Of a DNA stretch of 64,000 nt, positions 47,449 to 55,866 are shown one piece after another. How positions within the stretch are numbered: position 1 is the stretch's first letter; the number at the start of each line of letters is the position of its first letter. Below the pieces are notes generated by a model, which worked only from the letters and a program-made list of their open reading frames with translations, ran no database searches and was not told the origin of the DNA. The position numbers and the translations under genes are program-made. The DNA comes from Thiohalorhabdus denitrificans (GTDB taxonomy: Bacteria; Pseudomonadota; Gammaproteobacteria; Thiohalorhabdales; Thiohalorhabdaceae), in NCBI RefSeq assembly GCF_001399755.1, contig NZ_LJCP01000007.1, positions 62,001-126,000 of the forward strand, read 5' to 3'.

Positions 47449-47664
47449 TTACTTCCCCGCGGGGCGCTGGATGCCGCCGGAGGGCAGGCCGGCCTTGCCC
47501 AGCATGGAGTCCAGCGGGCAGAAGCGGGTGAAACCGCTCTGCAACAGGTTCAGGCCCACGAAGCCGGTGAGCAGCAGCCACCACTGGCTGTGGTAGATCA
47601 CCAATGCAACGGACACCAGGATCACGGTGCCGGCGAAGATGCGGACCACGCGTTCGGTCGTCAT
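47449..47664 (-). CDS. DUF2892 family membrane protein (YgaP-like tail)
   Basis: The 71-residue protein matches DUF2892: TTERVVRIFAGTVILVSVAL, then WWLLLTGFVGLNLLQSGFTR, then FCPLDSMLGKAGL with the conserved Cys-Pro. Two spans are predicted. In E. coli the same region is the membrane part of the rhodanese YgaP, which is controlled by the ArsR-type regulator YgaV. DUF2892 proteins are also found in BigR/SqrR sulfide-response loci. Here it lies 47 bases after the RND pump gene. The likely role is linked to sulfur or thiol metabolism, as inference. Confidence 0.82.
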   Translation of the reverse strand: MTTERVVRIFAGTVILVSVALVIYHSQWWLLLTGFVGLNLLQSGFTRFCPLDSMLGKAGLPSGGIQRPAGK

Positions 47665-47711: not shown

Positions 47712-50700
47712 TCAGCCGGCCCGGCCCGCCTCGATCACCCGATCCATGCGCTTGCGCATGAAGGCGAAGTACATCACCGGGATCACCACCAGCGTCAGCA
47801 GGGTGGCGGCGGCGATCCCGAACAGCAGGGAGATGGCCAGACCCTGGAAGATGGGGTCAAACAGGATCACGAAGGCGCCCACCATGGCGGCGGCCGCGGT
47901 GAGGACGATGGGCCGCAGCCGCACCGCGCCGGAGCGGATCACCGCCTCCTGGAAGTCCACCCCTTGAGCCGTCTCCTGGTTGATGAAGTCCACCAGCAGG
48001 ATGGAGTTGCGGACGATGATGCCGCCCAGGGCGATCATGCCGATCATGGAGGTGGCGGTGAAATGGGCGCCGAACAGTGCGTGCCCGGGCATCACCCCCA
48101 CCACCGTCAGCGGTATGGGCGCCATGATGATGACGGGCACCAGGTAGCTGCGGAACTGCCCCACGATGAGCAGGAAGATCAGCACCAGGCCCACCGCGTA
48201 GGCGGCGCCCATGTCGCGGAAGGTCTCGTAGGTGACCTGGGCCTCGCCGTCCCACTTGAGGGCGTACTTGTACTCCTGCTCCGGCTGCTGGGTGAACAGC
48301 TGCGGGATGGTGTAGCCCTGGTCGAGCGGCTCCTCCTGCAGGCTGTCCCAGATGTAGTAGAGGCCGTAGAGGGGGCTGTCGTTGGGCTGCGCCTTGTCGC
48401 CCGTGACGTAGACCACCGGTTTCAGGTTCTTGTGGTAGATGGTCTGGTCCCGCGTGGTCTCCACGGGGGTCACCAGCTCCGCCAGCGGCACGAGGGCGCC
48501 GTCGCGGGACTGCACCCGCATCTCCAGCAGGGAGTCGATGCGCGCCTTCTGGGCGTCGGGCAGCTCGGCGCGGATCAGCAGCGGGTACTTCTGGTTCTCG
48601 CGGTGCAGCGCTGAGATGTCCTCGCCCTCCAGGGCCATGGAGATGGCCTGGGCGATGCGCTGCTCGGAGACCCCGGCGCGGGCGGCCTTCTCCTTGTCCA
48701 CCACCAGCCGCACCTTCTCGCCCTGGGCCTCCACCGTGCTGTCCACGTCGGTGACGGTGTCCACTTGGCGGAAGCGCTCCTCCACCTGCCGGGCCACGTC
48801 CAGCTGGCCCTCGTAGGAGGGGCCGTAGATCTCCGCCACCAGGGGGGAAAGCACCGGCGGGCCCGGCGGCACCTCCACGATCTTCACGTTGGCCCCGTGC
48901 TCCTCGCCGATGGCGTGCAGCTCGTCGCGCACGTCCAGGGCGATCTCGTGGCTGGAGCGCTCGCGGTGCTCCTTGTGCGCCAGGTTCACCTGGATGTCGG
49001 CCTGGTGGGGCGCCTCCCGCATGTAGTACTGGCGCACCAGGCCGTTGAAGTTGATGGGCGAGTGGATGCCCACATACTCCTGGTAGTCGGTGACCTCGGG
49101 GACGGTGGCCAGGTACTGTCCCAGCTCCTGGGTCACCTGGGCGGTGGTCTCCAGGGCCGTGCCTTCGGGCATGTCCACCACCACCTGGAGCTCCGACTTG
49201 TTGTCGAAGGGCAGCATCTTGAGGGTCACCAGCTTGAAGTAGGCCAGCGACATGGCCGCCCCCATGAGCACGAGCACCACCGCGAACATGGCCCAGCGCT
49301 TGCCGCGGCTCTCGAAGAACGGCGTCAGGAACCAGCGGTAGAACCGGAAGGTCCAGCCTTCCTCGGGATGGCGGTCGGCGCCCCCTTCCTCCAGGGGCTG
49401 CTCCCCGCCGGGCTCCCCCTCATGGTGGGTCCCGCTGCGTTTGAGCAGCAGGTAGGCCAGCCAGGGCGTGATGATGAAGGCCACCAGCAGGGAGAAGAAC
49501 ATGGCGAAGGAGGCGTTGATGGGGATGGGGCTCATGTAGGGCCCCATCAGCCCCGTCACGAACGCCATGGGCAGGAGGGCGGCGATCACCGTGAAGGTGG
49601 CCAGGATGGTGGGGTTGCCCACCTCGTCCACGGCGTAGGGGGTGGCCGCGTCCAGGGAGCGCTCGCCGAGCATGTGGTGGCGGTGGATGTTCTCCACCAC
49701 CACGATGGCGTCGTCCACCAGGATGCCGATGGAGAAGATCAGGGCGAACAGCGACACCCGGTTGATGGTGAAGCCCCACATGTAGGAGGCGAACAGGGTC
49801 AGGCCCAGGGTAATGGGGATCACCACCAGGACCACGGTGCCCTCCTTGCGGCCCAGGGCCAGGCCGATGAACAGCACCACGGAGACCGTGGCCACGCCCA
49901 GGTGGAACAGCAGCTCGTTGGCCTTGTGGTTGGCGGTGTAGCCGTAGTCCCGGGTGACGCTGTACTCGATGTCCTCGGGGACGATGTGGCCGCTCAGGTC
50001 CTCGAAGCGCTCCACCACCGCCTCGGCGACCTCCACGGCGTTGGTGCCCTTCTTTTTGGCCACCGCCACGGTCACCGCGGGGGTGCGCGTCCCGGCCTCC
50101 AGACCCTTCTGTCCGGCGGACGGTCCGGTGCCCATCCACACGTACTGGTCGGGATCCCCCGGGCCCTCGGAGACCTCGGCCACGTCCTTGAGATAGACCG
50201 GGGCCTGCTCGTGCACCCCCACCACCAGGTTGCGGGTCTCCTCCACGGTGGTCAGGAAGGTGCCCGTCTGCACGATGACGGACTGGTTGTCGCGGGTCAG
50301 CTCGCCGGAGGGCAGGCTGCTGTTGGAGACCTTCAGGGCGTCCCGGATGGCCCCCGGGCCGACGCCGAATTCGGCCATGCGGTCGGGCTGCATGTGGATC
50401 CGGACGTTGTGATCGGGGCCGCCGAGGGTGTAGACGTCGGCGGTGTCCTGCACCTTCTTGAGCTCCGCCTCCACCGCATGGGCGGTCTGGCGCAGCTCGT
50501 ACCCGGTGTACTCGTCCGAGAACAGAGTCAGGTTGACCACCGGGACGTCGTTGATGCTCTTGGGCTTGACGATGGGCTCGCCCACGCCCACCGCCTGAGG
50601 GATCCAGTCGCGGTTGGCCATGACCTTGTTGTAGGTCTTGACCAGGGCGTCGGTGCGGTCCGAGCCCACCTCGAAGCGCACCGTGATCACCGCCATGTCC

Positions 50701-50981
50701 GGGCTGGAGGCCGAGTAGACGTACTTGGCGCCCTTGATCTCCGAGAGGACCTGCTCGGCGGGGGTGGCCACCAGGGACTCCACCTCCTCCGCCGAGGCGC
50801 CCGGGAAGGGGATGAAGATGTCCACGAGGGGCACCTTGATCTGGGGCTCCTCCTCGCGGGGCGTCAGCATCACCGCCAGAAGGCCGGCCAGCAGGGCCAG
50901 GATCCCTAGCAGCGGGGTGATCCGGGCCCCCATGAACTTGGCGGCCATCCGTCCGGCGATGCCGTAGGTTTGCTCGGCCAT
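47712..50981 (-). CDS. RND family efflux pump permease
   Basis: Proton-driven inner-membrane trimeric pump. The 1089-residue protein has an N-terminal span, then VPLVDIFIPFPGASAEEVES and two large periplasmic loops. Spans 2-6 include SLFALIFSIGILVDDAIVVV with the acidic proton-relay Asp pair, and NASFAMFFSLLVAFIITPWL. A Glu/His-rich cytoplasmic linker (about 510-535) separates the halves. The second half has GGIIVRNSILLVDFINQETA. It does not show the CzcA heavy-metal DFG/DxxxD signature clearly, so substrates may be organic or sulfur compounds. It is third in the TolC-adaptor-pump operon. Confidence 0.92.
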   Translation of the reverse strand: MAEQTYGIAGRMAAKFMGARITPLLGILALLAGLLAVMLTPREEEPQIKVPLVDIFIPFPGASAEEVESLVATPAEQVLSEIKGAKYVYSASSPDMAVITVRFEVGSDRTDALVKTYNKVMANRDWIPQAVGVGEPIVKPKSINDVPVVNLTLFSDEYTGYELRQTAHAVEAELKKVQDTADVYTLGGPDHNVRIHMQPDRMAEFGVGPGAIRDALKVSNSSLPSGELTRDNQSVIVQTGTFLTTVEETRNLVVGVHEQAPVYLKDVAEVSEGPGDPDQYVWMGTGPSAGQKGLEAGTRTPAVTVAVAKKKGTNAVEVAEAVVERFEDLSGHIVPEDIEYSVTRDYGYTANHKANELLFHLGVATVSVVLFIGLALGRKEGTVVLVVIPITLGLTLFASYMWGFTINRVSLFALIFSIGILVDDAIVVVENIHRHHMLGERSLDAATPYAVDEVGNPTILATFTVIAALLPMAFVTGLMGPYMSPIPINASFAMFFSLLVAFIITPWLAYLLLKRSGTHHEGEPGGEQPLEEGGADRHPEEGWTFRFYRWFLTPFFESRGKRWAMFAVVLVLMGAAMSLAYFKLVTLKMLPFDNKSELQVVVDMPEGTALETTAQVTQELGQYLATVPEVTDYQEYVGIHSPINFNGLVRQYYMREAPHQADIQVNLAHKEHRERSSHEIALDVRDELHAIGEEHGANVKIVEVPPGPPVLSPLVAEIYGPSYEGQLDVARQVEERFRQVDTVTDVDSTVEAQGEKVRLVVDKEKAARAGVSEQRIAQAISMALEGEDISALHRENQKYPLLIRAELPDAQKARIDSLLEMRVQSRDGALVPLAELVTPVETTRDQTIYHKNLKPVVYVTGDKAQPNDSPLYGLYYIWDSLQEEPLDQGYTIPQLFTQQPEQEYKYALKWDGEAQVTYETFRDMGAAYAVGLVLIFLLIVGQFRSYLVPVIIMAPIPLTVVGVMPGHALFGAHFTATSMIGMIALGGIIVRNSILLVDFINQETAQGVDFQEAVIRSGAVRLRPIVLTAAAAMVGAFVILFDPIFQGLAISLLFGIAAATLLTLVVIPVMYFAFMRKRMDRVIEAGRAG

Positions 50982-51061: not shown

Positions 51062-52123
51062 TTAGTGGGCGGCCTCCGTGGCCTCGTCTCCCGCGGCGGG
51101 CTGCTCCTCCTTGAGGTAGCGCAGCGCCCGCTCGGGGTCCAGGGCGATGCGGTCGCCTGCGCGCAGGCCGGCGAGCACCTCGCGGCCCTCCTGGGAGTGC
51201 TCGCCCAGTTCCACCAGGCGGAACACCACCCGGTTCTCCCGCACCACGTACACCCCGGTGATCTCGTTGCGGTGGACCAGGGCCCGACGCGGCACCACCA
51301 GGGAATCCTCGGCGCCCATCAGGAACTCCGCCCGGCCGAACATCCCAGCGGACACGGGGGCTTCCTCGGGGAGCCGGAGGCGGACCTGGAAGGTGTGGGT
51401 GGTGGGGTCGCCCTGCGGCACGATGGTGACCCGCTCGGCCGGGAAGCGCTCGTCCAGGGCGGGGATCCAGGCGCGGGCCTCGCCGTCCGCCAGCAGTTCG
51501 GGGATGCGGCTCTCCTGGACTCGGGCGGTCAGGCGCAGCCGGCTGGGATCCAGGACCGTGATCAGGGGAGCCCCGGGCTGGGCCAGCTCGCCCTCCTCCA
51601 TGTGGGTCGCCGTCACCACGCCGTCCACCGGGGCCTGGATCTCGGTCTTGTCCAGCCGGATGCGCAGCTTGCGGATCTCGGCCTCCGCTTGGCTGCGCTG
51701 GGCCTCCGCGCGGCTCAGGGCCGCGCTGGCCTCGTCCATCTGCTGCTCGGAGGCGGAGTTCTGCTCGTAGAGGCTCTTGGTCCGCTGGAAGGTGCTCCGG
51801 GCCTCCTCGGCCCGCGCCTTCGCGGCCTCCAGGGCGGCCTCGGTCACCGCCAGCTGGGCCCGCAGGCTCTCGTCGTCGAGGCGCACCAGGGTGTCGCCCT
51901 TGGCCACCGAGTCGCCCACGTCGTAGGGCATGGCCACCACCTGGCCGCTCACCTCCGCGGAGATCCGGGAGGCGCGCCGGGACTCCACGGTGCCGGGGGC
52001 GCTGCGTATCCGTTCCACGGGCTGGGGCTCCAGCACCATGGTCTCGAAGGGCATCTCCGCCGCTTCGGCGGACACCGTCGCGAAAAGGGCAGCTCCGGCC
52101 AGGACAACGGCGAGCCTTTTCAT
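51062..52123 (-). CDS. RND efflux periplasmic adaptor
   Basis: Membrane-fusion protein linking the RND pump to the outer-membrane channel. The 353-residue precursor has a Sec signal (LAVVLAGAALFATVSAEAAE). The lipoyl half (PGTVESRRASRISAEVSGQV) is followed by a helical hairpin (about 85-165, KAEEARSTFQRTKSLYEQ-type heptads), the second lipoyl half (IRLDKTEIQAPVDGVVTATH), then a barrel and the membrane-proximal domain (EITGVYVVRENRVVFRLVEL). No metal-binding histidine tail of the CusB type is seen. Confidence 0.9.
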   Translation of the reverse strand: MKRLAVVLAGAALFATVSAEAAEMPFETMVLEPQPVERIRSAPGTVESRRASRISAEVSGQVVAMPYDVGDSVAKGDTLVRLDDESLRAQLAVTEAALEAAKARAEEARSTFQRTKSLYEQNSASEQQMDEASAALSRAEAQRSQAEAEIRKLRIRLDKTEIQAPVDGVVTATHMEEGELAQPGAPLITVLDPSRLRLTARVQESRIPELLADGEARAWIPALDERFPAERVTIVPQGDPTTHTFQVRLRLPEEAPVSAGMFGRAEFLMGAEDSLVVPRRALVHRNEITGVYVVRENRVVFRLVELGEHSQEGREVLAGLRAGDRIALDPERALRYLKEEQPAAGDEATEAAH

Positions 52124-52196: not shown

Positions 52197-53591
52197 TCAA
52201 CCGTGGGGGGCGCCGCCGGTCCCGTCCGGGCCCGCGAGGCGGTCCAGGACGGGGGTCTGGCCCACCGCCTTCTGCAGCCGCGCGTGGCTCAGGCGCAGGT
52301 CGTAGAAGGCCTCCACCTGCCGCAGCCGGGCCTGTTGGCGGGCAAGCTGGGCGTCAAGGACCTCCACCATGGTGGCCGCTCCCTGCCGGTAGCGGTCCGT
52401 GTTAGTGCGCAGGCTCTCCCGGGCGCTCGCCACGGCGTGGCCCACGGTGTCCAGGCGGCGCCGGGCGGTATCCAGGTCGAGCCTGGCCCGCTTCACCTCC
52501 AGCCGGACCTTGCGCCGGATGTCGGTGAGCCGGGCCCGGGCGGCGTAGCGCTCCGCCTCCGCCGCATCGCGGCTGGCCCAGCGGCCGCCGCCGAACAGCC
52601 GCCAGTCCATCCGCACCCCCGCCAGCCAGCTCTGGTCGGCGGTGCTGGCGCGATGGTCCTCCAGTCGCGCCTCCAGATTCACGTGGGGGAGGAGCTCCGC
52701 GGTGGCGGCATCCACCCCCGCGCGGGCCGCGCCGAGCTGGGCCTCGGTGGCGGCGATGGCGGGTCGCTTGGCGATGGCCCGCTCCACCAGGGCGTCCAGC
52801 CCGGGCGCCTTGGCGGGCAGGTCCTCGCCCAGGTCACGGTCGAGGTTCACCGGGGCGTCGAGGTCGCGCCCGAGCCGCTCGTTGAGGGCGCTCTTGGCCA
52901 CGGCCACCCCGTTGCGGTGGGCGAGGAGCTGCTCCTCCAGCTCGCTGACCCGGGTCCGGGCCTGGAGCATGTCCCCGCGCATGGCCGCGCCCGTCTCCAG
53001 ACGGTTCTCGGCGATGCGCAGGTGCTCGCGGGCGGCCTTCAGGGCCTCCTCGGTTACCGCCACCCGCGCCTCGGCCAGCTGCACCCGCAGGAAGGCCTTG
53101 GTGGCGCCCAGGGCCACGTCGAGCCGGGTCTGATCGAGTTGGCGGCTCATGGCCTCCCGGTTGGAGCGGGCCCGGCGCACCTCGGCGCTGGTGGCCCCGC
53201 CGCGGTAGAGCGGCTGGCGCAGCACCAGGGCGGTGGCGAGGTCGCTGGTGGTGTCGGGGTCGTTGAGGGTGCCGAAATCCCCCTGGGTCAGGTCCCCGAA
53301 GTCCTCGCCCTGCACGTCCCCCTGGCTCAGCTTGGCCATGAAGGCCTGGGCGGGGCTGTTGGTGGCGCGGGCGCCCACCTCCAGGTCCACCACGGGCAGG
53401 TAGCCGCTGCCGGCGGCCTCGGCGCGGTATCCGGCGGCTTCCTGCCGGTAGCGCTGGGCCTGAACCTGGTTGTTGTTCTCCAGGGCCTGGCGCACGGCCT
53501 CGGGAAGCTCCAGGGCCTGGGCGGTGCCCGGGGCGAGAGCGGCGCCGAGGAGGCCCACGGGCAGGAGTCGGAGCAGGTCTTTAATAACCAT
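52197..53591 (-). CDS. TolC family outer membrane channel protein
   Basis: Outer-membrane efflux channel. The 464-residue precursor has a signal (LLPVGLLGAALAPGTAQA). Repeated OEP domains follow: LELPEAVRQALENNNQVQAQ at the start of the mature part, long helices such as LFGGGRWASRDAAEAERYAA, and YRQGAATMVEVLDAQLARQQ near the C-terminus. The ATG at 53591 has no Shine-Dalgarno sequence; an in-frame stop lies four codons upstream. The start codon lies inside an AT-rich inverted repeat, so the leader may be very short and bound by a regulator. Confidence 0.9.
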   Translation of the reverse strand: MVIKDLLRLLPVGLLGAALAPGTAQALELPEAVRQALENNNQVQAQRYRQEAAGYRAEAAGSGYLPVVDLEVGARATNSPAQAFMAKLSQGDVQGEDFGDLTQGDFGTLNDPDTTSDLATALVLRQPLYRGGATSAEVRRARSNREAMSRQLDQTRLDVALGATKAFLRVQLAEARVAVTEEALKAAREHLRIAENRLETGAAMRGDMLQARTRVSELEEQLLAHRNGVAVAKSALNERLGRDLDAPVNLDRDLGEDLPAKAPGLDALVERAIAKRPAIAATEAQLGAARAGVDAATAELLPHVNLEARLEDHRASTADQSWLAGVRMDWRLFGGGRWASRDAAEAERYAARARLTDIRRKVRLEVKRARLDLDTARRRLDTVGHAVASARESLRTNTDRYRQGAATMVEVLDAQLARQQARLRQVEAFYDLRLSHARLQKAVGQTPVLDRLAGPDGTGGAPHG

Positions 53592-53600
53592 ATTATTAAA
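53580..53600. promoter_or_regulatory. AT-rich operator-like inverted repeat at the efflux operon start
   Basis: TTTAATAA (53580-53587), five bases and TTATTAAA (53593-53600) form a perfect inverted repeat that contains the tolC-family start codon (53589-53591). The AT-rich stretch extends to about 53635 and includes TATAAG on the minus strand, a good -10. It shares the nine-mer TAATAATAT with the arsR promoter region. The likely ligand is the ArsR-family regulator encoded next door. Confidence 0.6.
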
Positions 53601-53773
53601 TTACCATTTGCTTATATTAAAAACCATAAATAAATCCGAGCACCTTGCCCGGACGTTCCCGTACGGCCATCTGGGAGAACCTTTCCCGCATGGGCCTGTC
53701 CTTCGCGGTCAGGTGGGGGCGGCCGACCCGTTCCCCTGGGGTCCGGCCGAGCCGGACCCACCCATGATAGAAG

Positions 53774-54097
53774 TTACGCGTGATCGTCGTCGAATGGGCA
53801 AAAGACCTCGCGCATCAGGGAGATCAGCTTCAGGGTGCGGGGGTCGCCGACCCGGTAGTACACCTTGTTGGCGTTCTTCCGGGCCTTGAGGATGCCCTTG
53901 TCGCGCATGATCCCCAGGTGCTGGGAAATGTTGCTCTGAGACGTGCCCACCTCCTCCACGATCTCCTGCACGCTCATCTCCTTGTCGTTGAGCGTGCACA
54001 GGACCTTGAGGCGCAAGGGGTGCGACATCGCCTTGAGGGAGCGAGAGGCCTGCTCGATGTTCTCGTCGCCCTCGAGCAGGTGTTCGGTGGACTCCAT
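53774..54097 (-). CDS. ArsR-family regulator of the SqrR/BigR type
   Basis: Winged-helix repressor of 107 residues. The fold is standard: IEQASRSLKAMSHPLRLKVL, then the recognition helix VGTSQSNISQHLGIMRDKGI and the wing ARKNANKVYYRVGDP. Cysteines are only at residues 34 (LKVLCTL) and 100 (REVFCPF). Their 66-residue spacing equals that of the redox cysteines of Rhodobacter SqrR (41/107) and Xylella BigR (42/108), which form a polysulfide bridge. The metal sites of arsenic or zinc sensors (CVC or HxH) are absent. It lies 182 bases upstream of the efflux operon on the same strand. Start ATG follows GGGGGAGGAAGG. Confidence 0.85.
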   Translation of the reverse strand: MESTEHLLEGDENIEQASRSLKAMSHPLRLKVLCTLNDKEMSVQEIVEEVGTSQSNISQHLGIMRDKGILKARKNANKVYYRVGDPRTLKLISLMREVFCPFDDDHA

Positions 54098-54110
54098 GAC
54101 CTTCCTCCCC

Positions 54111-54122
54111 CAGAATTCTGGG
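54111..54122. promoter_or_regulatory. Perfect 12-base palindrome in the arsR leader
   Basis: CCAGAATTCTGG is a perfect palindrome directly upstream of the ribosome site of the ArsR-family gene. It may be an operator or a short leader hairpin. Confidence 0.4.
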
Positions 54123-54134
54123 CTGTTTTACTGA

Positions 54135-54163
54135 GTAATAATAATATTATATGTCCGAGTCAA
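54135..54163 (-). promoter_or_regulatory. arsR promoter with palindromic operator
   Basis: On the minus strand, TTGACT (complement of 54158-54163), 17 bases and TATTAC (complement of 54135-54140) form a sigma-70 promoter 38 bases upstream of the ArsR-family gene. The spacer contains the perfect palindrome ATAATATTAT (54141-54150). A repressor bound there would block RNA polymerase, consistent with autoregulation. Confidence 0.6.
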
Positions 54164-54204
54164 GGAACCTGGGGGTTCCCCGGGCGTCACATGGCTATGG
54201 GTTT

Positions 54205-54232
54205 TTGCTAGAATTTAGAACCTTTCTATAAG
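54205..54232 (+). promoter_or_regulatory. gpmI operon promoter
   Basis: TTGCTA (54205-54210), 16 bases and TATAAG (54227-54232) lie about 60 bases before gpmI in an AT-rich patch. A GC-rich CCGCGGG/CCCGCGG hairpin follows (about 54235-54251) in the leader. Confidence 0.5.
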
Positions 54233-54291
54233 TCCCGCGGGCTCCCGCGGGGTTGTCCGTGACCGCGGCGGGAGACGAAGAGGGAGGCCCG

Positions 54292-55866
54292 ATGGCGCTG
54301 CCGCATCGTCCTATGGTGCTTATGATTCTCGATGGCTGGGGGTACCGGGAGGACCCGGAGTCCAACGCCGTCCATGCCGCGCATCTGCCGGTGATGGACG
54401 GCCTGTGGCGCGATTACCCCCATACCTTGATCCAGGCCTCCGCCGCTTCCGTGGGGCTGCCCTCCGGCCAGATGGGTAGCTCCGAGGTGGGCCACCTGAA
54501 CCTGGGCGCGGGGCGCGTCGTGTACCAGGAGTACGCCCGGATCAATCGTGCCATCGAGGACGGTTCATTTTATAGCAACCACGAGCTTACCGCCGCCGTG
54601 GACGCGGTGAAAGCCAGTGGCAAGGCCCTGCACATCATGGGGCTGCTCTCCGACGGCGGCGTGCACAGCCACCAGTCGCACATCGAGGCCATGGTGAAGC
54701 TGGCGGTGGAGCGCGGCGCCCCGGAGGTCTATGTCCACGCCTTCCTCGATGGCCGCGACACCGCGCCCCAGAGCGCCCACCGCTACGTCCACCGCCTGCA
54801 GAAGTTCATGGCGGAGGTGGGCGGGGGCCGTATCGCCACCGTGGTCGGCCGGTACTACGCCATGGACCGCGACCGGCGCTGGCAGCGGGTGCAGGCGGCC
54901 TACGACCTCCTCACCCAGGGCACGGGGCACGCGGCCCGAGGCGCCATCGAGGCCGTGGACATGGCCTACGAGCGGGGCGAGACCGACGAGTTCGTGGAGG
55001 CCACGGCCATGGTCGACGATGCCGGGGCCCCGATCGGGGTGGTGGGTGACGGCGACGCGGTGGTGTTCATGAACTTCCGCTCCGACCGCGCCCGGCAGAT
55101 CACCCAGCCCTTCATCGAGCCCGGGTTCGACAAGTTCGAGCGGGCGGTGGTCCCGGACCTGGCGCACTTCGTGTGCCTGACCGAGTACAACGACGCCTTC
55201 GACGTGCCCATGGCGTTCCCGCCTCAGCGCCTGAAGCGCATCTTCGGCGAGTACCTCGCCTCCCTGGGCATGGGGCAGCTGCGCATCGCCGAAACGGAGA
55301 AGTACGCCCACGTCACCTTCTTCTTCAACGGGGGCGAGGAGACGCCGTTCCCCGGCGAGGACCGGATCCTGATCCACTCGCCGCAGGTGGCCACCTACGA
55401 CCAGCAGCCGGAGATGAGCGCCCACGAGCTCACCGACGAGGTGGTGAAGGCGGTGGACGCCGGCACCTACGACGTCATCATCATGAACTACGCCAACGCG
55501 GACATGGTGGGCCACACCGGCAACTTCGACGCCACCGTGCAGGCCCTGGAGGCGGTGGACGAGTGCGTGGGCCGGGTGGTGGAGTCCGTGCGCGCCCACG
55601 GCGGGGAGCTGCTGGTCACCGCGGACCACGGCAACGCCGAGCAGATGGCGGACCCGGAGACCGGCAAGCCGCACACCGCCCACAGCATCAATCCTGTGCC
55701 CTTCATCTACGTGGGCGACCGCAAGGTGACCATGGCCGAGACCGGGGCCCTGGAGGACGTGGTGCCGACCATGCTCCACCTCATGGCGCTGCCCCAGCCC
55801 CACGAGATGACCGGCCACGCCCTGGCCCAGCTCGACGTGGCCACGGAACAGGCCGAAGGGGTGTGA
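54292..55866 (+). CDS. gpmI: 2,3-bisphosphoglycerate-independent phosphoglycerate mutase
   Basis: Manganese-dependent glycolytic enzyme that interconverts 3- and 2-phosphoglycerate. The 524-residue protein starts MALPHRPMVLMILDGWGYRE behind AGGGAGG; an earlier frame start is not conserved. The catalytic serine is in SGQMGSSEVGHLNLGAGR near residue 60. Metal ligands are in DGWG, in IIMNYANADMVGHTGNFDAT and in LLVTADHGNAEQMADPETGK. The normal length is ~510. It is the first gene of the gpmI-envC-ctpA-yibQ set. Confidence 0.97.
   Translation: MALPHRPMVLMILDGWGYREDPESNAVHAAHLPVMDGLWRDYPHTLIQASAASVGLPSGQMGSSEVGHLNLGAGRVVYQEYARINRAIEDGSFYSNHELTAAVDAVKASGKALHIMGLLSDGGVHSHQSHIEAMVKLAVERGAPEVYVHAFLDGRDTAPQSAHRYVHRLQKFMAEVGGGRIATVVGRYYAMDRDRRWQRVQAAYDLLTQGTGHAARGAIEAVDMAYERGETDEFVEATAMVDDAGAPIGVVGDGDAVVFMNFRSDRARQITQPFIEPGFDKFERAVVPDLAHFVCLTEYNDAFDVPMAFPPQRLKRIFGEYLASLGMGQLRIAETEKYAHVTFFFNGGEETPFPGEDRILIHSPQVATYDQQPEMSAHELTDEVVKAVDAGTYDVIIMNYANADMVGHTGNFDATVQALEAVDECVGRVVESVRAHGGELLVTADHGNAEQMADPETGKPHTAHSINPVPFIYVGDRKVTMAETGALEDVVPTMLHLMALPQPHEMTGHALAQLDVATEQAEGV

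Follow-up and report, generated by a model that had tools for sequence, protein, structure and literature searches.

Persulfide-sensing regulators of the ArsR family fall into a cluster (SSN cluster 4: SqrR, BigR, YgaV, and HlyU) that is defined by a pair of cysteines in helices alpha2 and alpha5 (PMC10509353). In SqrR of Rhodobacter capsulatus these cysteines are 66 residues apart. The SqrR site is ATTC-N8-GAAT, and the region protected by YgaV has a similar site (PMC9774250). BigR is represented in Xylella fastidiosa and Acinetobacter baumannii, and the A. baumannii operon contains a persulfide dioxygenase and two membrane proteins. YgaV of E. coli and HlyU of Vibrio also have the Cys pair, but HlyU is an activator, of hlyA. 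The accessible parts of the literature on YgaV-YgaP and HlyU link neither an RND operon nor a sulfur-oxidation regulon to them. In Hyphomicrobium denitrificans, an alphaproteobacterium, the ArsR proteins sHdrR and SoxR, each with two Cys, respond to sulfane sulfur and repress sulfur-oxidation genes. A 2025 survey places RND pumps among the neighbours and likely targets of sulfane-sulfur ArsR regulators; RND control is drawn there from gene neighbourhood only, and no operator consensus was found in its accessible text (PMC12423496). Another RND pump responsive to sulfane sulfur is that of the MexR-MexAB-OprM system of Pseudomonas aeruginosa, where sulfane sulfur derepresses the pump (PMC11211675). 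However, MexR is a MarR-family regulator with another Cys arrangement, and its pump belongs to a different RND clade from the one considered here.

The window, a 64-kb stretch of the Thiohalorhabdus denitrificans genome, encodes an ArsR-family regulator of 107 residues (53774..54097, minus strand, ATG start; ORF list, Pfam, NCBIfam), predicted to be a persulfide- or polysulfide-sensing repressor. A sequence-only reading had placed it at 53774-54163; the gene does lie there, but the end at 54163 includes 66 bp of upstream non-coding DNA. The protein scores 49.5 bits against Pfam HTH_5 (cut-off 22), as expected of an ArsR winged-helix protein. That reading had also pointed to the presence of two cysteines only, C34 and C100, 66 residues apart, and to the lack of a CVC motif. 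This holds: the 107-residue sequence contains exactly these two cysteines and neither CVC/CXC nor another metal motif, and both residues are kept in 87 of 87 orthologous sequences. In an AlphaFold2 model (pLDDT 75), C34 lies inside helix 27-36 (alpha2), and C100 is immediately past helix 86-99, at the end of alpha5, which is the arrangement that defines SSN cluster 4. An alignment with SqrR, BigR, and YgaV, which the sequence-only reading had proposed, matches the two residues with the Cys pairs of these proteins and of HlyU.

Database searches point the same way. Against PDB sequences (phmmer), BigR, YgaV, HlyU (three entries), and SqrR rank first and metal sensors come many orders of magnitude below them; the best Foldseek matches of the model are BigR, HlyU, NolR, SqrR, and YgaV. 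In the tree the regulator and its orthologs form a supported clade of their own (97/99) and the metal sensors, among which a placement would have spoken against persulfide sensing, fall apart from it (84/72). The branching order among the persulfide sensors has no resolution at the backbone, and assignment of the regulator inside any one characterised sensor was dropped. BigR is the best PDB match by both sequence and fold, but on the BigR equivalog model (NF040642, NCBIfam) the regulator reaches 78.2 bits where the cut-off is 155, and is therefore not classed as BigR. It is 36-38% identical to YgaV and HlyU. It resembles SqrR in fold and in Cys spacing, but the identity is 32%, SqrR has an extra N-terminal Cys, the genomic context is other, and the clade is separate. 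A rhodanese neighbourhood, also typical of the persulfide group, is found in relatives (rhodanese-grxC-secB), while in the window the neighbours are a DUF2892 gene and a pump only. Sequence, fold, and tree together support the earlier placement of the regulator in the persulfide-sensing SqrR/BigR/YgaV/HlyU group.

Downstream of arsR, all on the minus strand, are four genes whose identities, as originally read, are verified by family searches. The first gene of the operon encodes a TolC-family outer-membrane efflux protein (OEP; 464 aa, 52197..53591; Pfam, NCBIfam). It is followed by an RND periplasmic adaptor, or membrane-fusion protein (353 aa, 51062..52123; TIGR01730, 218 bits, over the cut-off), and an RND permease of the AcrB/AcrD/AcrF family (1089 aa, 47712..50981; ACR_tran, 533 bits), so that outer-membrane factor, adaptor, and permease of a tripartite RND system stand together. 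The last is a DUF2892 protein (71 aa, one Cys, 47449..47664; PF11127, now Pfam YgaP-like_TM, 57.7 bits); YgaP of E. coli carries the same transmembrane domain. CtaG and SCO1 genes lie further downstream. By its sequence the permease belongs with the multidrug type, not with CusA/CzcA: on the CusA/CzcA model TIGR00914 it scores 216 bits (cut-off 701), below its scores on multidrug RND models, and its best solved relatives, MexK among them, score about 255 bits. Permease relatives are present in 151 of 369 gammaproteobacterial genomes. In the sister species (G001; L120 11485-15156, flipped orientation) no DUF2892 gene was detected beside the pump, and substrate-binding-protein-like and sensor-like genes follow the RND gene in its place. 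In several genomes (L152, L159, L161; by eye) TusA-like and DsrE-like genes are found upstream of the RND operon, which may connect this pump clade further with sulfur trafficking.

The pump is not part of the regulator's usual neighbourhood. An ArsR match at E<=1e-15 occurs in 207 of the 369 genomes, 183 of them close, and orthologs at 70-80% identity are found in numerous Gammaproteobacteria, sulfur oxidizers and others alike. The gene order around them is constant: gpmI, transcribed divergently, and then arsR-(DUF2892)-rhodanese-grxC-secB-gpsA. In the window the conserved divergent neighbour is also present (gpmI, phosphoglycerate mutase, 54292..55866, plus strand), although it was missed at first, and the arsR-gpmI promoter region between them (54098..54291) has an AT-rich block, GACATATAATATTATTATTACTCAGTAAAACAG, that is near-identical in the sister species. 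A complete tripartite pump adjoining arsR was found in just two species, that of the window and one sister; in a third species of the genus, ctaG comes directly after arsR. The pump beside the regulator is thus a local arrangement of the genus, and we dropped the pump as a member of the usual neighbourhood. Variants of the arrangement occur: in genome G082 an adaptor-RND pair ends a divergent gpmI, arsR-rhodanese-secB-gpsA series, in G254 a more distant arsR (59% identity) lies upstream of adaptor-RND, and in G341 an ArsR-like match is followed by a phosphatase-like/YgaP-like_TM fusion protein and then adaptor-RND. Since nearly all relatives pair the regulator with gpmI and rhodanese, and almost never with a pump, adjacency is weak evidence for control, and the original inference of pump control is not supported by adjacency as such.

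The evidence for control comes instead from a candidate operator. In other Gammaproteobacteria a palindrome, ATATTAG-N6-CTAATAT, stands out before the adaptor gene of pumps of this type; it includes ATTA-N8-TAAT and so has the 4-N8-4 inverted-repeat form, with the same half-site spacing as the SqrR operator; the copy in the window is imperfect. Of 57 related pump loci, 34 have a copy with up to two mismatches in the 300 bp before the adaptor. The reversed pattern gives 0/57 and shuffled palindromes about 0.4, and a count inside the pump gene itself gives 0/58. The exact palindrome occurs in 92 of the 369 genomes of the class, and counts for reversed controls are near zero. A close ArsR ortholog is present in 81 of these 92 genomes and missing from 11, compared with 102 of the 277 others having it (odds ratio 12.6, P 1e-18, uncorrected for shared ancestry). 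Among the pump loci, the ortholog accompanies 33 of 34 with the site and 18 of 23 without (P 0.03, likewise uncorrected for shared ancestry). Other palindrome sites front TolC, DUF2892, DUF4395-rhodanese, DUF302-like, and rhodanese genes. The palindrome also fronts genes with no obvious sulfur link, for example a pyrophosphatase and a peptidase-like gene, so some sites may be non-functional. Separately, a second, unrelated ArsR-exporter pair has the same operator type: at L262 (G010:C204, 1522-1557) a two-Cys BigR-like ArsR, with 108 bits on the BigR model, is separated from a divergent RND/MMPL-type exporter by a stretch that holds two overlapping perfect palindromes.

In the 64-kb window the palindrome has one match at up to three mismatches (0.05 expected), namely the candidate operator AAATTACCATTTGCTTATAT (53598..53617; 3 mismatches). 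The site precedes the tolC start by 6 bp and is flanked by a weak promoter-like pair. In the sister species a single match is likewise found in 18.5 kb, where 0.01 would be expected; it occupies the equivalent position before tolC and is kept there despite divergence of the surrounding GC-rich spacer. Local shuffling reaches the quality of the window's site in 0.4% of cases over the whole intergenic region and in up to 5% over the AT-rich core, so the tolC site by itself is good but not conclusive. Together with the sites at related pumps, this SqrR-spaced candidate operator supports the proposal of the sequence-only reading that the regulator controls the pump. In the arsR-gpmI region the best match has 5 mismatches, and autoregulation of arsR through the palindrome is therefore not supported. 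Many relatives share a separate AT-rich element, TTATTATTGTATAATGTT, which is conserved some 70-120 bp ahead of arsR and may be a promoter or operator. This motif, made from the relatives' arsR promoters, has its top two window matches in the tolC and arsR promoters, but it was set aside as evidence because the window is 70% GC, where AT-rich motifs favour promoters, and local shuffling of its tolC site gives P 0.07. It may act chiefly as a promoter element.

The rest of the genome provides an independent check, since it was not used in defining the motif. A pattern search at up to three mismatches gives 22 palindrome sites, and the reversed control gives 8; at up to two mismatches sites remain for the real pattern and none for the control. 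We inspected the genes beside fourteen of the palindrome sites. A site lies 41 bp upstream of a sulfide:quinone reductase gene (3 mismatches; protein 603 bits to a solved SQR), so that sqr would belong to the regulon, as with SqrR. Another is 48 bp upstream of a persulfide dioxygenase gene (2 mismatches; 280 bits to 4ysb, 212 to ETHE1). Further sites are at soxX of a sox cluster (2 mismatches; the SoxB of the cluster scores 836 bits), in the coxBA region, and at ccoG (1 mismatch). The genes beside the eight reversed-control sites include no such sulfur-oxidation or oxidase enzymes. The palindrome before ccoG, which encodes a cbb3 oxidase accessory protein, recurs in G178 and the sister species (three genomes; L284, L301, L212), which hints that terminal-oxidase maturation is under sulfide control. 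Operator-like sites with 3 mismatches common to both sister species are found at an rnf-like cluster and at an EF-P-like gene/divergent small gene (L289 and L300; L290 and L302). Four ArsR proteins of the genome exceed the Pfam cut-off: the window's regulator, an arsenic-type protein with CVC, a fusion of ArsR with rhodanese, and a fourth that lacks the alpha2 Cys. Because only the first has a C34/C100-type pair, it is the sole two-Cys ArsR candidate for the regulon. The fusion, at L002 (G000:C11:304644-304895), has an open frame of about 240 aa and lacks the alpha2/alpha5 Cys pair.

The regulator might serve gpmI, rhodanese, and sulfur metabolism only, with the pump adjoining by chance and driven by a sulfur-independent promoter of its own. 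The usual gpmI and rhodanese-grxC-secB-gpsA setting without a pump, and ctaG in the pump's place in the third species, are what would be expected from such chance adjacency. It does not account for the SqrR-spaced operator at pumps of the same type whose arsR is far away, nor for the sole palindrome match of the window falling in the pump promoter, and we consider it unlikely. Alternatively, the palindrome could belong to another regulator while the window's ArsR, like HlyU, acts elsewhere. This would explain why arsR's own promoter lacks the palindrome and why some palindrome genomes have no close ortholog. The strong co-occurrence of palindrome and ArsR, the SqrR-like half-site spacing, the position of the palindrome between a two-Cys ArsR and an exporter at L262, and the absence of a second two-Cys ArsR from the window's genome make ownership by another regulator quite improbable.

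A metal or metalloid sensor controlling metal efflux of the CusA/CzcA kind was also considered, since the regulator scores 84 bits (cut-off 55) on a generic 'metalloregulator' model of NCBIfam and the adaptor has some CzcB similarity (NCBIfam). The NCBIfam scores as a whole, the ranking of PDB sequences, and the tree led us to drop the metal-sensor reading of the regulator. With no metal motif in the protein, a permease far below the CusA/CzcA cut-off, and palindromes at sqr, pdo, and sox, metal efflux is a very improbable function for the pair.

The reading we prefer, with a probability of about 0.7, is that of a persulfide-sensing ArsR repressor whose palindrome targets include the adjoining pump as well as sqr, persulfide dioxygenase, sox, and ccoG. 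By analogy with SqrR, BigR, and SoxR, the reduced dimer would bind palindromes of the ATATTAG-N6-CTAATAT type and repress. Reactive or sulfane sulfur would then form a C34-Sn-C100 bridge inside one protomer, and the bridged protein would leave the DNA, allowing the targets to be expressed. The tolC-adaptor-RND-DUF2892 operon, sqr, persulfide dioxygenase, the sox operon, and the oxidase genes/ccoG would rise together. Because the putative targets comprise both the pump and the sulfide-oxidation genes, the pump would be co-induced with sulfide oxidation, and we infer that it most likely removes a toxic product or by-product of that process.

The sequence-only reading had called a sulfide-responsive RND system new or little described. 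The link between RND pumps and sulfane sulfur is already on record (PMC12423496; PMC11211675), so the novelty lies in the regulon and the subfamily, not in the principle. The openly searchable literature yielded no description of the ortholog group, the gpmI-rhodanese context, the palindrome, or a regulon joining RND and sulfide oxidation, although the original BigR papers could already describe the operator; a paper on SqrR and c-di-GMP has nothing on efflux. More tentatively, and with rather more doubt than confidence, the sites may reflect a previously undescribed persulfide regulon across the Gammaproteobacteria, in which one two-Cys ArsR and one palindrome would govern sulfide oxidation, terminal-oxidase maturation, and a dedicated RND exporter of a sulfur-bearing toxic product. 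The recurrence of the control site before the pump and before sulfide-oxidizing enzymes means that the pump is probably part of the reactive-sulfur response. If so, many sulfur-oxidizing Gammaproteobacteria would turn on a pump of the antibiotic-efflux type along with sulfide oxidation, a widespread but unassigned RND clade would acquire a testable physiological role, and a concrete operator would become available for predicting persulfide regulons throughout the class.
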